Below are positions 13,438 to 23,181 of a stretch of 64,000 nucleotides of DNA, in pieces. This DNA comes from Polynucleobacter duraquae (GTDB lineage: Bacteria > Pseudomonadota > Gammaproteobacteria > Burkholderiales > Burkholderiaceae). Both the position numbers and the translations under genes were made by a program. The DNA lies in assembly GCF_000973625.1 (NCBI RefSeq), contig NZ_CP007501.1, forward strand, positions 1,302,001-1,366,000, in the 5' to 3' direction. The notes under the pieces were generated by a model that worked only from the letters and a program-made list of their open reading frames with translations, ran no database searches and was not told the origin of the DNA. The stretch's first letter is position 1; each line of letters begins with the position of its first letter.

Positions 13438-14481
13438 TCAGTTTTTAGCGCTATGAATACTATCGTTCGGCTTAGTTTTAGCAGGTACAAGATAGGGATA
13501 ATCTTGCAGCATGCTTTTTCCTAATAAAGGCTTATTTACTCCCTGGTGACATGTTGCGCAATTGGCTTTAGCAACATCGCCAGTAGGCCCTAAACGATTT
13601 GCTGGGAATACATCCGTTATGGAACTAATGAAATTGGTATTGACGTCCTTCAACATCTGAATACCGTGCCATGCCTGTACACGCTGTGGAGTACTCTGCT
13701 CCCAACTGCCGAAATTATTTGAGTTGTGACAGTAAGTACAGTTCACATTCAGCGAAGTAGACATATGGGTCATGACGCCATACACACTCTCCGTCGCTTG
13801 AATGGAAGCTTTATTACCAGTCGGAAGTGCTGTATCACCAATCACCCGGGCTGGGCCGGAATTTGCAACAAAGTACGTCCCAAATGGTTGATTAGGTAAG
13901 GAGCTATACCCAACATTGCTTGAAGGATCATTTTGCCCATTAGCATTGCCGAGCATATTGCCGCCACGCTTTTCTTCAGGGTTAAACCAAACGTTTTGTG
14001 GGATGTTATTACCACGGTGACAGGTATAGCAAGTCACTCCAGTGGTTTTAACGTGATTACTCCAAGTGCCATTAATCTCTTGATTCATCAAGATCATTTT
14101 TCTAGCGACGGTCTTGGTATACAAAGAATCATCAGCAAAGTTTTGAACGTTATGGCAGTAAGCGCAACCTTCCTTTGGAGAAACCCAAGCGGTCATAGAC
14201 ACCATGAAAGCACTGAACTGAGCAGCACTCAAGTTATTCAGCACCTTCACGTTCTTATAGACAGCTCCAGCCTTAGGTCCATCAGCCGATGCCGGAATTC
14301 CCGCTGGCATTTCGTTCAGCTTTGCCAGTTGAGCATCCGTTCTTGGATTATTAATCTGGGCCATACCAGTTCCTCGGAAGCCCATTTGCTTTGAGTCTAT
14401 TGGCGGCCGCTCACATGCGGTCAGCATCAAGACACTCAGAATTCCCAATACCACTGTTAATTTATGACGTAGGTTCTTCAT
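13438..14481 (-). CDS. pufC: Reaction centre tetraheme cytochrome c subunit (lipoprotein)
   Basis: A 347-residue protein with a lipoprotein signal ending in LMLTAC (Cys23) and four CxxCH heme-binding motifs at about residues 106, 151, 248 and 308. It is the periplasmic cytochrome that re-reduces the special pair of the RC-LH1 complex. The ATG at 14481 overlaps the pufM stop (ATGA), and the residues after it form a proper signal peptide. A longer open frame upstream lies within pufM and is discarded. It is the last gene of the puf operon. Confidence 0.95.
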
Positions 14482-15476
14482 TTTTTCTCCCCCATAGCAA
14501 CTGGAGCAACGGGCGCTGAAAGAGCCGGATCCGCCACCGTTCCATATATTGCTGGATAAGCAGGTGCTATATCGTGCTTCACACCCCATAAATACCAGTT
14601 ATCAACTACTGTTCCAGTTAATAGGATGCCAATACCACCAGTCAGCGGCGTCAGTATTGCAAACCACCAGGCCCAACGGTGAATGGATTCCATGGTTGCA
14701 TTGAAGCCCATAGTCCATCTCCAAAACAGTGCGGCCCGCTCTGAAGCTGTACCACGATCAACAATTTGTTCTATTTCTCGCTCGCCACCAAACCGGCTCA
14801 CCGCAAGAATGGTTGCTCCGTGCATGGCGAAGAGTAGTACAGAGCCATATAGAAATACGATGGAGAGCATGTGGAACGGGTTATAAAACAAATTTCCGTA
14901 GCGAATCGAGAATGCAGCTGTCCAGTCCAAGTGAGAAAAAATACCGAATGGCACCGCTTCACTCCAGCTACCCATTAATACAGGTCGAATGAGACCGAGC
15001 ACTAAAAATAACCAGATTGCGGAAGCAAATGCCCAAGGGACATGATTTCCCATACCAAGCGCTTGAGCTCGGCGGAAGGTTCTAAACCACCACAACATAA
15101 TGGAGATTGTGGAAAAGAGGCCCACAATAAGCCACCAGCCACCCTCATTTAAAGGCGGAAAGCTAAGGCCATATTTTGGTGCAGGGGCATCCAGAGAAAG
15201 CCAGAACAGTTTTTTGACAAACTGAAGTGGATTCCACCCTACTTGGGCCAACATATTCATACCGATGATGAAAAATGCTGTCATGCCGAACATGAGTGAC
15301 GCGACACCAAGCCGTCCCAGATAAACTGGTCCGATCTGAGCATTGCCTAGACGACCCAGTAAATGGCTAATACCAATTGAGCGAGTTCGCTCACGCATGT
15401 CGTATGCGTTAATGGGCACGCCATGACTAGCAGGTCCAGTTACTTGAGTTTGAGTAAATAAGTTTTGATATTCCAT
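14478..15476 (-). CDS. pufM: Photosynthetic reaction centre M subunit
   Basis: A 332-residue, five-helix membrane protein that with PufL binds the bacteriochlorophyll special pair, bacteriopheophytins, quinones and non-heme iron. Family stretches such as [21 protein letters not shown] (here kept to under 20: [17 protein letters not shown]), [20 protein letters not shown] and [20 protein letters not shown] carry the conserved histidines. It starts 32 bases after pufL and overlaps pufC by four bases. Length is normal for a type II reaction centre M subunit. Confidence 0.97.
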
Positions 15477-15508: not shown

Positions 15509-16333
15509 CTACCCCCAGATAGGCAAATTCAACCACCACGTCCACCACTCAGGCCATCCTTTTGTCCAGAAAGGCCCGCTGATTACGATACAAACTGCAC
15601 TCCAAAATACAGCTGCTAATGCCAGGAATAAACCGAGACGGTGAATTCCTAAGGTTCCCACTGAATAACCAATAATGTCTCTGAAGAAGGTGTCTTCGTG
15701 CTCTGGGGTTCTTACAGTCTGACCGGCAGCAGGATTGGTAGAAGACAAAACTAGGGCACCGTGTAGAGCAAGCGCTAGCGTTGTGGTAAAAAATAAGGTC
15801 ACCGCAATCATGTGAGCCGGGTTGTAATGAAAGTGTAGGTACTGATAACCCGTATTGGATACCCAATCTAGGTGACTCAATATTCCATACGGGAATCCAT
15901 GTCCCCATGCACCCATCAGAACCGGGCGAATGACCACTAAAGTAAAGTACGCAAAAATTGCCATGCTAAAAGCCAGTGGCACATGAAGACCCATGCCGAG
16001 TTTTCTCGAAATTTCTACTTCGCGCAAAGCCCATGATCCGAATGCGCCTAAGGCACAAATTGTAATGATCTGCCAAAGTCCGCCCTCCATCATGGGGGCT
16101 GGCCCGAGACCATACTTCAGATCGGGCGGAGCAATATTGATTTGCCAGGGATTAAAGACCCCTACCTGAGAGGTTCCCCAGAAAATCATTGCAGTCCCGA
16201 GAAACGTAAAGAAGACTGTAGTGACACCAAAAAATCCCACGTAAAACGGGCCTACCCAGAAATCAAATAGATCTCCACCGATAAGCGTTCCGCCGCGTAC
16301 GCGGTATTTCTTTTCAAAGTTGAGCATGGCCAT
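15509..16333 (-). CDS. pufL: Photosynthetic reaction centre L subunit
   Basis: A 274-residue, five-helix protein starting [20 protein letters not shown], the standard PufL N-terminus. The ATG at 16333 has AAGGAG six bases upstream. Conserved segments include [20 protein letters not shown] (special-pair and accessory pigment histidines) and the quinone/iron region [19 protein letters not shown]. It follows pufA after a 98-base spacer with a strong hairpin, as in other puf operons where antenna and reaction-centre transcript segments differ in stability. Confidence 0.97.
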
Positions 16334-16431: not shown

Positions 16432-16608
16432 TTACTTCTTCGCTGCAGAAATTGCTGCTTTGTACTGCTCTTGACTCATGCCATCCAACCATTTGTATTG
16501 AACAGTGCTCAATAAAATGAGATGAATCATCGCTGCCAAAGCAAAGAGAAAAACTCCTTGGGCAACCATTGCACGTAGTGGGTCGTATAACTTCCAAATT
16601 CTCCACAT
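16432..16608 (-). CDS. pufA: Light-harvesting LH1 alpha polypeptide
   Basis: A 58-residue single-helix antenna protein starting [20 protein letters not shown]. His29 in ALAAMIH is the bacteriochlorophyll ligand of the alpha chain. It has an N-in topology and a polar C-terminal tail ([14 protein letters not shown]). The AGGAG ribosome binding site directly follows the stop codon TAG of the upstream 73-codon gene, so the two are likely translationally coupled. Confidence 0.97.
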
Positions 16609-16618
16609 AATATTTCTC

Positions 16619-16840
16619 CTAATTTAAGTAAGACATAAAACCGTAAACACCTGACTCCACTGATTTGAAGAATGATCCCCCATCAGATCCAGAAAATAAC
16701 CACGCTTTCTGGGAGGCAGGCAATACAACCAAAAAGAGAGCCGCCATAAAGATCACTACATAGCTAATTAGAAAAATAACCTTGAACGACACCGTGTCGG
16801 GAAGATGATTCTTATTTATTAAATCCGTACTGGTCTTCAT
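16619..16840 (-). CDS. Unrecognised 73-aa single-helix membrane protein between pufB and pufA
   Basis: The ATG at 16840 has AAGGAG eight bases upstream (a GTG three codons earlier is open but would abolish that site). The protein has a polar N-terminus with four Lys ([16 protein letters not shown]), one strong membrane helix at about 18-41 ([20 protein letters not shown]), and a periplasmic tail of about 30 residues ending [13 protein letters not shown]. There is no histidine in the helix, so it is not an antenna polypeptide. The stop codon abuts the pufA ribosome binding site. PufX lies after pufM in Rhodobacter, and PufQ lies before pufB; neither sequence resembles this one. It could be an RC-LH1 accessory or assembly subunit, by position only. 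Confidence 0.75.
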
Positions 16841-16890
16841 ATAAAACACTCCTTTTAGTTGAATCTATTTACTATGTACTTACTGCTGCA

Positions 16891-17037
16891 TCAAAAGAAC
16901 CATGGACGCCATGCCCATACAAGTATGTGCGCGACGACTGCGATAGCAGTAAAACCAAGCAAACCTTGCACATAAAATGCATGGAATTCTTGAGCTTCTG
17001 CATCGGTAAGCCCAGATATAGATCTGTTTTCACTCAT
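16891..17037 (-). CDS. pufB: Light-harvesting LH1 beta polypeptide
   Basis: A 48-residue antenna protein. After MSENRSIS comes the typical beta-chain sequence [17 protein letters not shown], then one membrane helix with the ligand His37 in AVVAH and the end [17 protein letters not shown] lies upstream of the ATG. It is the first puf structural gene, 123 bases after bchZ, and is separated from pufA by the 73-codon gene instead of being directly adjacent as is usual. Confidence 0.97.
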
Positions 17038-17160: not shown

Positions 17161-18618
17161 TCATACTGTCTCTCCACTCATTTGGGATAGCGTTGACTTT
17201 TGAACACAATCGACTGTCACTCTTTCAATGTTCTGTTTGCGAGCCTCAAACTCAGATTCGTCACGGATTCTTTTTGCAGCTGAAATTTGCGTCAGCACAG
17301 GCTGATTACTAATTAATTTGTTCATTAATGCTTGGGCTTCCTCTTCCCACGGAATAGAAGCAATCTGCCCTTGCAATCTTGCTGGGGTTGGATCCACCTT
17401 ATCCATCTCTGTACCCAAGGGCAGGATGTGAAAGAGCGCATCAAATAATGAGTTACATACTTCTTGAATCAGATAGACCGCTCCGGAATAACCCATAAAC
17501 GGAGTGCCGGTGTGCCGACGAATAATTGCGCCAGGAAAGGATGCGGGAATATAAGAGAAACGTGCATTCACTTCGCTTCCGTACATCCGCTCGTTATAGC
17601 TACCAAACATAACTAATGGTGTTTTCTTCTGCACCAGATCTCTCACTTCGACGTTATTCGTTTTATTGCCTGGCAATCTAGAGACGGCAAAGTTACAAGG
17701 AAGACCCATCTCATCTTCCAAGAAATTGCGCACACCACGGGTATAGGTTTCGTTAGCAACGATGGCAAAACTGGCTGTACCAAAGAAGTCTTGAGTCACA
17801 GAGCGCCATAAATCCCATGCTGGCTTGAGTGTGGTGTGCTTTTCTTTTTCAATAAAGCCTTCCACATCAATCTCACAGAGTTCGCCAAGCTTACGAAGGA
17901 ATGCAGTGGTCGATTGCATACCAATCGGTGCCTGTAAATAAGGGCGCTCGAGGGTCTCACACAATAAGCGTCCGTATTCGCGATACATACAAATATTGAC
18001 ATCTGCATTAACTAACTTTGCAACGTCGGCAAGATGGGAGCTCAATGGGAACACCATATTGACCTCTGCCCCTACACCCTCTACCAGGCGTCGAATTTCT
18101 GCAAGGTCACTATATAAATTAAAGCTGCCATAGGCTGGCCCAATAATATTGACTCTTGGCTTTTCGCCTTCTACTCTTTCACGCTTTGGAATCTTTTTGA
18201 GGCCATACTCTGTCCATAACCAATTCATGGCACGATTTGCGCACTGCCATTGATCTTCATCGATGGTTCGTGGCAAGAAACGCTTAATTCCAGTTCCTTC
18301 TGGTGTCACACCTCCGCCAATCATTTCAGCAATAGAGCCTGTAACTACTACTGCTGGTAAATTGGGATCGAGCACCTTGTGGGCCCGCTTCATCGATTCT
18401 TCTGTACCTTCTCTACCGAGCTGCTCTTCTGCTAATCCAGTAACCACAATCGGCAACTCATGCGGAGGCAATGCATCGGTGTAATGCAAGACTGAAGTCA
18501 CTGGTAAATTTTCACAACCGACAGGTCCATCAATGACAACCTGCAGCCCCTTGATAGCTGTGAAAACATACACGGCTCCCCAATAGCCGCCAGCGCGATC
18601 GTGATCAATGACTAACAT
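17161..18618 (-). CDS. bchZ: Chlorophyllide a reductase subunit Z
   Basis: A 485-residue nitrogenase-like subunit of chlorophyllide a oxidoreductase, which reduces ring B to the bacteriochlorin. It starts [19 protein letters not shown] and has the cysteine in [16 protein letters not shown] expected for the YZ cluster site. C-terminal sequence [31 protein letters not shown] is family-like ([13 protein letters not shown] shown). The start overlaps the bchY stop by one base. It is followed by the puf genes. Confidence 0.96.
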
Positions 18619-22191: not shown

Positions 22192-23181
22192 TTAACGACT
22201 AATTAGTAAAACTTGGGCATTAATTGGCATGTTGGATGGTAAAACCTCCACTTTTTTAAAGCCTGAGTCGATTGCCAGGGCCGAAATCTCGGAAATACTC
22301 CTTGGTTTACCGCGACCCATTGCCAATAGATAAAAACCAAAATAAGCCCGTCCCATCGCAGGGTGACCCGGTGTATCAGCCATCGGCTCAGCGATTAATA
22401 GCTTTCCATTGGGCGGGAGCGCTTCAAAAATCGAACGCAAAAGAATTTTGACGCGCGCATCGTCATGATCAAAGATCACCCGAATCAATGTAATCAAATC
22501 GGCACCATGAGGCAGAGGATCTTTAAAAAAATCACCGCCGTATACCTGAATATCTTTTTGTTTTTGGTCTTTCAAAAAACCATCTTGTGCAAGCTGCGCT
22601 ACGCCTGGAAGATCAAATAATTTTCTCTGTAATTGAGGCGCATTCAAATGAACCCGTTTTAAAAAAGTTCCTTGACCACCACCAACATCCAGAAGACATT
22701 GGTGCCTAGAAAAATCGTATGCATCGACTACTTGATCGGCGACTAGTGGTAGTGATGCTGACATTAAATCTGAATAATTTTTAACGCGCTCTTTATCTAA
22801 TAAAGATTCTTGTTCCTTTTCATCTTCAGAAACATAAGGCCAAAATTTTTCTAGATTTTTATTTTTAATACCACCCGATAACAACAACAAAGGGTCTTTA
22901 AGATCTTCATACAGTACGGTGTGATGCTCGATCATCGCAGACAATGCAGTGTTGCCAACCATGGGGGCGCCGAGTGTACCTAAGCCATATCTCTGATGAG
23001 AGCGCATCTCTAGGAGATCAATCGATACTGCGCCATCGAGTAACTTCTGTAATGCATCCAACTCAAGACCGCAGTTATTTTTTATGAACCCGATTTCTAA
23101 TGGGCCATTTTTCAACAGGTTAAATAAATTGATTCGAACACAAGCAAGCAGTATCTGTGTGTAGACAAAGCCAGCCATCAA
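22192..23181 (-). CDS. crtF: Hydroxyneurosporene O-methyltransferase CrtF, main part of a frameshifted gene
   Basis: This open frame of 329 codons carries the dimerisation and catalytic parts of an acetylserotonin-type SAM O-methyltransferase: LFDLMAGFVYTQILLACVRI at the front edge, the SAM-binding CLLDVGGGQGTFLKR and the downstream DLITLIRVIFDHDD with the catalytic-base region. CrtF methylates the C1 hydroxyl of demethylspheroidene-type carotenoids. The frame continues to be homologous upstream of any start codon (KKRANQLFDL), and the true N-terminus lies in another frame (23182-23354), separated by an A7 run. TTG at 23181 or ATG at 23178 could give a shortened protein. Whether it is active is unknown. 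Confidence 0.85.
   Translation of the reverse strand: MMAGFVYTQILLACVRINLFNLLKNGPLEIGFIKNNCGLELDALQKLLDGAVSIDLLEMRSHQRYGLGTLGAPMVGNTALSAMIEHHTVLYEDLKDPLLLLSGGIKNKNLEKFWPYVSEDEKEQESLLDKERVKNYSDLMSASLPLVADQVVDAYDFSRHQCLLDVGGGQGTFLKRVHLNAPQLQRKLFDLPGVAQLAQDGFLKDQKQKDIQVYGGDFFKDPLPHGADLITLIRVIFDHDDARVKILLRSIFEALPPNGKLLIAEPMADTPGHPAMGRAYFGFYLLAMGRGKPRSISEISALAIDSGFKKVEVLPSNMPINAQVLLISR

Follow-up and report, generated by a model that had tools for sequence, protein, structure and literature searches.

What does the small gene between the antenna genes pufB and pufA of Polynucleobacter duraquae encode, and what might its product contribute to the LH1 antenna? On the minus strand of the window (the whole stretch of 64,000 nucleotides that was analysed), the order is bchZ, pufB, the 73-codon gene, pufA, pufL, pufM and pufC, with the following features:

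17161 to 18618, minus strand: Pfam Oxidored_nitro gene, which we take to be bchZ by its place
16891 to 17037, minus strand: pufB, LH1 beta, short-tailed, with the C-terminus WRPWFF (Pfam and NCBIfam NF040862)
16849 to 16854, minus strand: AAGGAG, the ribosome-binding site of the 73-codon gene, 8 nt 5' of its ATG
16619 to 16840, minus strand: the 73-codon gene, for a 73-aa beta-like membrane protein without the pigment-ligand histidine (ATG at 16840, TAG at 16619-16621)
16616 to 16621, minus strand: TAGGAG, the ribosome-binding site of pufA, overlapping the TAG stop of the 73-codon gene
16432 to 16608, minus strand: pufA, LH1 alpha (Pfam and NCBIfam NF040861)
15509 to 16333, minus strand: pufL (Photo_RC match)
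14478 to 15476, minus strand: pufM (Photo_RC match)
13438 to 14589, minus strand: pufC, the reaction-centre cytochrome, as an open frame (NF040706)

The 73-codon gene lies 50 nt 3' of pufB and 10 nt 5' of pufA, and its genome holds a single copy. The coordinates, strand, length and gene order of the original prediction hold, as does the gene's own AAGGAG site. Its TAG stop had been described as directly abutting the pufA ribosome-binding site; the two in fact overlap, the stop forming the first bases of TAGGAG, and translation of the gene may be coupled to that of pufA. The pufC frame overlaps pufM, and the true pufC start is therefore probably inside the frame. The gene occupies neither the place of PufQ, between bchZ and pufB, where the interval of 123 nt is too short for a pufQ-sized gene, nor that of PufX, directly after pufM, which is followed here by pufC. 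Elsewhere in the window, positions 22192-23181 encode a methyltransferase that weakly resembles BchU/CrtF (50.8 bits against a curated cut-off of 276.1).

The prediction that this is a real membrane-protein gene is borne out by its conservation. All 33 candidates scored in a protein search are homologues at E<=1 (the worst at 3.5e-17); 29 of them are 73 aa long and they are 67-93% identical by best local alignment. Most are named 'hypothetical protein', some come from Polynucleobacter, and the JGI names SecG and FliL, attached to two of them, look wrong. Eighteen columns are invariant among 34 close sequences and dN/dS ranges from 0.13 to 0.43 in 13 pairwise comparisons, a substitution pattern indicating that the gene is under purifying selection. 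Between the window and a close locus (L003), dN is 0.093 for the gene, 0.036 for pufB and 0.022 for pufA.

We further note that the gene is found at the same place in many related phototrophs. A search of species genomes for closely similar pufM genes gave 595 matches, and the loci of the best 80 were fetched; 69 of them have both pufB and pufA, and 50 of these 69 carry a frame of the family between them, about 66-80 aa long depending on the start chosen. Two more loci (L033 and L045) have the family frame with no pufB found, one locus (L065) was taken out of the carrier set by hand, and ten of the 11 loci without both pufB and pufA start within about 1.6 kb upstream of pufM. From the 52 carrier loci, L003, L019 and L042 were omitted from the main alignment as near copies. 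By record title the carriers include Rubrivivax gelatinosus, R. benzoatilyticus, Limnohabitans, Sphaerotilus and Pelomonas. The contigs of L019 and L057 are titled as Bordetella parapertussis and Klebsiella pneumoniae MAGs and contain Burkholderiales-type puf operons; these titles are probably wrong. Two proteins in which PufB is fused to the 74-aa protein (P0034 and P0035, each from a single contig) probably reflect a lost stop or a frameshift and were left out of the analysis. The eleventh of the loci without both genes, an uncultured Methylibium locus (L077), has pufL and pufM, with no match to pufB, pufA or the family in the 10 kb upstream of pufM.

Of the 399 Burkholderiales genomes sampled, a reaction centre is present in 48, a strong family match (E 1.6e-14 or better) in 44 and both in 43, in agreement with the expectation that homologues occur in related phototrophs. 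A pufL match follows 362-492 nt downstream on the same strand in 42 of the 44 strong matches, and the other two are on contigs without a pufL match. The order pufB-gene-pufA was found in all 30 loci fetched from this search (25 by pattern, four by eye and one, L111, through L130, another stretch of the same genome). Five reaction-centre genomes have no strong match: three from a single genus lack the gene (G069, G189 and G220), one contig stops 179 bases past its only reaction-centre match (G147), and one genome contains just part of pufL (G301). One genome carries the family gene without a reaction-centre match (G275). In a phylum-wide sample of 398 genomes, 31 have a reaction centre; four of these belong to the same order and all four carry the gene. 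When the puf regions of the other 27 were scanned with the family profile, the only scores came from PufB and from proteins at the pufQ position. A pufC match is present wherever enough sequence follows pufM (74 of 74 loci), and the cytochrome subunit thus does not discriminate.

The gene had looked undescribed; judged by place, it is already in print. A reading frame of R. gelatinosus upstream of pufA, ORF2, is cited from Nagashima 1994 as having no known function, in a 2025 paper that rejects it as the source of the Gemmatimonas pufA2 (10.1-14.5% identity to PufA2) and whose section on ORF2 reports no comparison with PufB (PMC12817894). In Roseateles depolymerans, ORF74, whose name implies 74 aa, has its locus tag between pufB and pufA and no known function; a major 1-kb transcript is common to pufA, pufB and ORF74, and ORF74, one of the three loci that change most on starvation, drops to 2.34% when a sigma factor is mutated (PMC10037100). 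The antenna-like level is thus shown for transcripts, and for the Roseateles counterpart only. We equate the 73-codon gene with ORF2 and ORF74 by place and length rather than by published letters. Family members at the R. gelatinosus IM 151 and R. benzoatilyticus loci are 74-78 aa long, and Roseateles proteins are 76-89% identical to the Pelomonas member.

The origin of the family is indicated by profile comparison. Aligned with hhalign, the family matches long-tailed PufB at 99.5% with a score of 108.9 over 73 columns that span both helix and tail, and a deeper family alignment raises this to 99.7% and 124.4. Among the controls, the reversed profile scores 12.2 and 40 block-shuffled versions of PufB peak at 32.7; none of 19 other membrane-segment families exceeds 14.7, and PufA gives 16.5-20.2. 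As a single sequence, the R. gelatinosus member retrieves an LH1 beta chain of known structure (E 6.7e-11), and the family profile matches the antenna chain 8z81_B at E 1.4e-17. These comparisons establish, at the level of the family, homology to the LH1 beta chain PufB. The original prediction, in so far as 'not a pigment-binding antenna chain' was taken to mean unrelated to antenna chains, is thereby not supported. In a 40-column tree without the pufQ-position proteins, a single branch separates the 52 family rows from 32 PufBs (support 99/89), and this grouping as one clade fits a single origin.

The window protein itself is strongly diverged, and its relationship to PufB runs through its relatives. 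Alone it reaches just 68% against PufB in hhalign, it has no Pfam LHC match, and together with its close family it finds no match in the PDB. The antenna model PF00556 recognises seven of the 52 rows at E<=1 (best 4.9e-4), and the window protein is not among them. None of 43 PDB matches scores as a family member, the best reaching 66 bits against 90-126 bits for members; structural pictures of LH1 may therefore lack a subunit for Burkholderiales. AlphaFold models of the monomer are too weak to use (mean pLDDT 64 and 68), and Foldseek returns one match, at a meaningless E of 7.8. Many homologues bear the JGI label 'light-harvesting complex 1 beta chain' (among the 120 of 1609 matches listed), and a relation to PufB is thus implicit in automatic annotation. 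No paper calling the gene a relative of PufB was found in the open literature searched; one of these searches, with 20 of its 289 hits listed, was dominated by a viral ORF74 and excludes little. On top of the printed ORF2 and ORF74, we regard the homology of the family to PufB as new here.

Comparison of functional positions shows what the family has lost. At the column of the bacteriochlorophyll ligand, the 52 family rows have Gln in 32, Leu in seven, Ser in three, Val in two, Ile in two, His in one and five other residues once each. The window protein has Val, consistent with the prediction that it contains no pigment-binding helix histidine. The N-terminal histidine, from the E-F-H motif of PufB, is kept in two of 52 rows. 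From these alignments, we conclude that the family has lost the bacteriochlorophyll-binding histidine of PufB. The one member with histidine at the ligand column, from Hydrogenophaga (L021:8580-8804), represents either a one-base return or a retention of the pigment site. The W-x-W-R-x-W interface is largely kept in its latter part (first W in 13 of the 52 rows, W45 in 47, R46 in 45 and W48 in 46); of these positions the window protein retains W48 alone, having lost W45 and R46 among the others. One membrane helix is predicted in the family, followed by a conserved C-terminal tail. Positive-inside topology, which the original prediction listed as a feature, does not carry over: the N-terminal flank is the more positive in 13 of 52 family rows and in none of 32 PufB rows. 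PufB is N-in in solved structures and the C-terminus of the beta chain is periplasmic. The charge bias is thus uninformative even for PufB, and the topology of the gene product rests on homology.

The presence of the gene also coincides with a change in PufB. Where the gene is present, only 1-3 residues follow the W-R-P-W of PufB or its variant (50 of 50 loci), whereas 17 of 19 gene-less loci from the same fetch have a PufB with a tail of 22-39 residues (the exceptions being L050 and L081). The C-terminal tail of the gene product aligns to the tail of these long PufBs. The distance from the gene stop to pufA, measured in 46 of the 50 carrier loci, is 10-16 nt in 42, and the same spacing separates the pufB stop from pufA in 15 of the 19 gene-less loci; the pufA junction thus looks ancestral. 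The simplest history would be a tandem duplication of a long-tailed pufB, after which the upstream gene shed its tail and the downstream gene its pigment site. Over the 69 loci, the association of tail and gene gives a Fisher value of 3e-14 uncorrected for kinship; two independent pairs lie on well-supported branches (seven on all branches), with a median sign-test p of 0.5. In a wider sample, PufB is short in 16 of 30 loci without the gene. Such short PufBs and the few independent pairs rule out tail complementarity as a general law, and the trade is true in one direction alone. The gene-less locus L050 (8724-8811) has a short-tailed PufB with neither the gene nor a gene at the pufQ position, and its pufB-pufA gap contains no evident remnant.

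Between bchZ and pufB, a small membrane protein is encoded in many other purple bacteria, and an earlier comparison of our family with seven such proteins, at 94%, led to a second family, which we call U. The wider sample of 30 gene-less loci divides into 13 with U, ten with PufQ and seven with neither. U, which Pfam leaves unnamed in the four members tested, was collected from loci L032, L062-L064, L066, L072, L081, L133-L137, L141, L144, L155 and L157-L161. It scores 64-69 against the gene family (shuffled maximum 23.1) and 50 against long PufB (shuffled maximum 22.1), and it has a C-terminal helix region and a size similar to that of the gene product. Arg occupies the ligand column in 19 of its 20 rows and the ligand histidine in none; W45 is found in four of these rows, R46 in three and W48 in one. 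In an unrooted tree, U and the gene family lie on one side against PufB at 92/96, a value below the tree program's star. U forms a separate clade (99/98), and the gene-family branch has 73/94 in the tree with U (26 of 52 rows kept). Being unrooted, this tree of the three clades PufB, gene family and U does not single out the nearest pair, and it is compatible with an origin from a relocated U as well as with one from a tandem pufB duplicate.

Classical PufQ shows no clear homology to either family in these comparisons. With whole rows used for the shuffled comparison, it scores 22-26 against the gene family, 24-29 against U and 12-18 against long PufB, with shuffled maxima of 27.8, 30.7 and 22.7, respectively. 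The PufQ model PF05398 has no match over its cut-off in the genome of the window, giving just 13.7 bits elsewhere in a stretch with internal stops, and it is not among the 25 of 26 families listed for curated-model matches. The earlier statement that the protein does not resemble PufQ agrees with these results, and we rule out that the gene is PufQ itself. U and the gene have not been found together in any of 74 testable loci: U is present in none of 48 loci with the gene and in seven of 18 without it, and neither U nor PufQ occurs in the 30 genome-search loci with the gene, 26 of which have enough upstream DNA and whose species may overlap with the set of 48. Within Burkholderiales, one genus, with three genomes, has U and lacks the gene.

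Taken together, we tentatively favour, at slightly less than an even chance, a role for the gene product as a pigment-free, beta-type accessory subunit of LH1, perhaps one that interrupts the ring. The gene would be translated along with the antenna, its stop overlapping the start region of pufA, and its product would insert N-in/C-out as beta does. Through its helix and the W-R-x-W interface of most members, it would occupy a position like that of a beta chain, within the LH1 ring or beside it, and carry no pigment. Because a beta position without pigment would break the ring of bacteriochlorophylls, the likeliest role would be a structural one, namely opening or closing the ring in the manner of PufX or protein W, to which it would be unrelated. 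Its tail might provide, from a single special subunit, a periplasmic contact that each long-tailed PufB may form in other rings. The main rival, which we consider rather unlikely, is that the product is the Burkholderiales counterpart of PufQ, a small membrane protein coexpressed with the antenna to direct the supply of pigment or the assembly of LH1, and absent from the finished complex. This reading draws on the homology of U, at the pufQ position, to the gene family, on their placement on the same side of the unrooted branch against PufB and on the separate occurrence of the two, together with the action of PufQ at the haem/bacteriochlorophyll branch through ferrochelatase (PMC5725709). However, classical PufQ does not exceed shuffled scores against the family, and the orientation noted above for the beta chain differs from that of PufQ, whose C-terminus is predicted to be cytoplasmic (PMC5725709). 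The exclusion of U and the gene closely tracks kinship, with the one exceptional Burkholderiales genus, and a structural role is favoured by the position of the gene between the two antenna genes and by the interface motif, which most members retain and U rarely keeps. Somewhat more doubtful again is a broader history in which many purple bacteria carry, next to pufB and pufA, a third antenna-type gene from one ancient pigment-free beta family, represented by ORF74 between pufB and pufA in Burkholderiales, by U before pufB elsewhere and by classical PufQ as a far member, with a product that seeds or opens the LH1 ring; if so, PufQ would be an antenna paralogue turned regulator.

Three further explanations fit the observations less well. 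It is improbable that the protein is a many-copy packing subunit, inserted between the beta chains so as to seal the ring in the way of gamma polypeptides. The antenna-like transcript level in Roseateles (PMC10037100) would suit such a subunit, and in Rhodopila globiformis a stabilising effect on LH1 and the blocking of quinone pores are ascribed to gamma-like chains (PMC9640540), but the Rhodopila chains have 22 aa, are oppositely oriented and are encoded elsewhere (PMC9640540), whereas the gene product is beta-like, has 73-80 aa and keeps a conserved tail. That the product still binds pigment, with Gln in place of histidine in most members, we regard as very improbable. Gln is able to ligate chlorophyll in plant LHCII and predominates at the ligand column, where L021 has even kept or regained His; yet 19 of 52 rows, the window protein included, have neither residue there, and both beta histidines are gone in nearly all rows. 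There is equally little to recommend a passenger duplicate without function, kept as an mRNA spacer between pufB and pufA: the gene does change faster than its neighbours, but its low dN/dS, its invariant columns and its strong match in nearly all reaction-centre genomes, of which the five others are three without the gene and two broken loci, argue against it.

A reading frame without assigned function, cited from 1994 for Rubrivivax, proves to be a PufB homologue with its pigment site lost, carried by 43 of 48 sampled Burkholderiales genomes with a reaction centre. Burkholderiales phototrophs of this kind are common among freshwater aerobic phototrophs. The finding makes two matters testable in a laboratory species that is easy to work with, namely the passage of quinone through LH1 rings without PufX and the nature of the small proteins at the pufQ position.

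Among known systems, PufB is alike in its alignable helix and tail, its one predicted helix, the W-R-x-W of most members and the same pufA junction and operon; it differs in that the family forms a separate clade, lacks the ligand histidine in all but one of 52 rows and, in the window, goes unrecognised by the LHC model. U is homologous to the family, of similar size and likewise without the ligand histidine, but it lies upstream of pufB, has Arg at the ligand column and forms its own clade. PufQ (PF05398) is also a small single-helix protein of the puf operon that is not found together with the gene, and it differs in position, in a family score no higher than shuffled and in having no match over the cut-off in this genome. 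PufX and protein W are accessory single-helix subunits of RC-LH1. By analogy, the gene product may be likened to them and to gamma, which are encoded by other genes at other positions. ORF2, upstream of pufA, and ORF74, between pufB and pufA, share the place of the 73-codon gene and match it in length.
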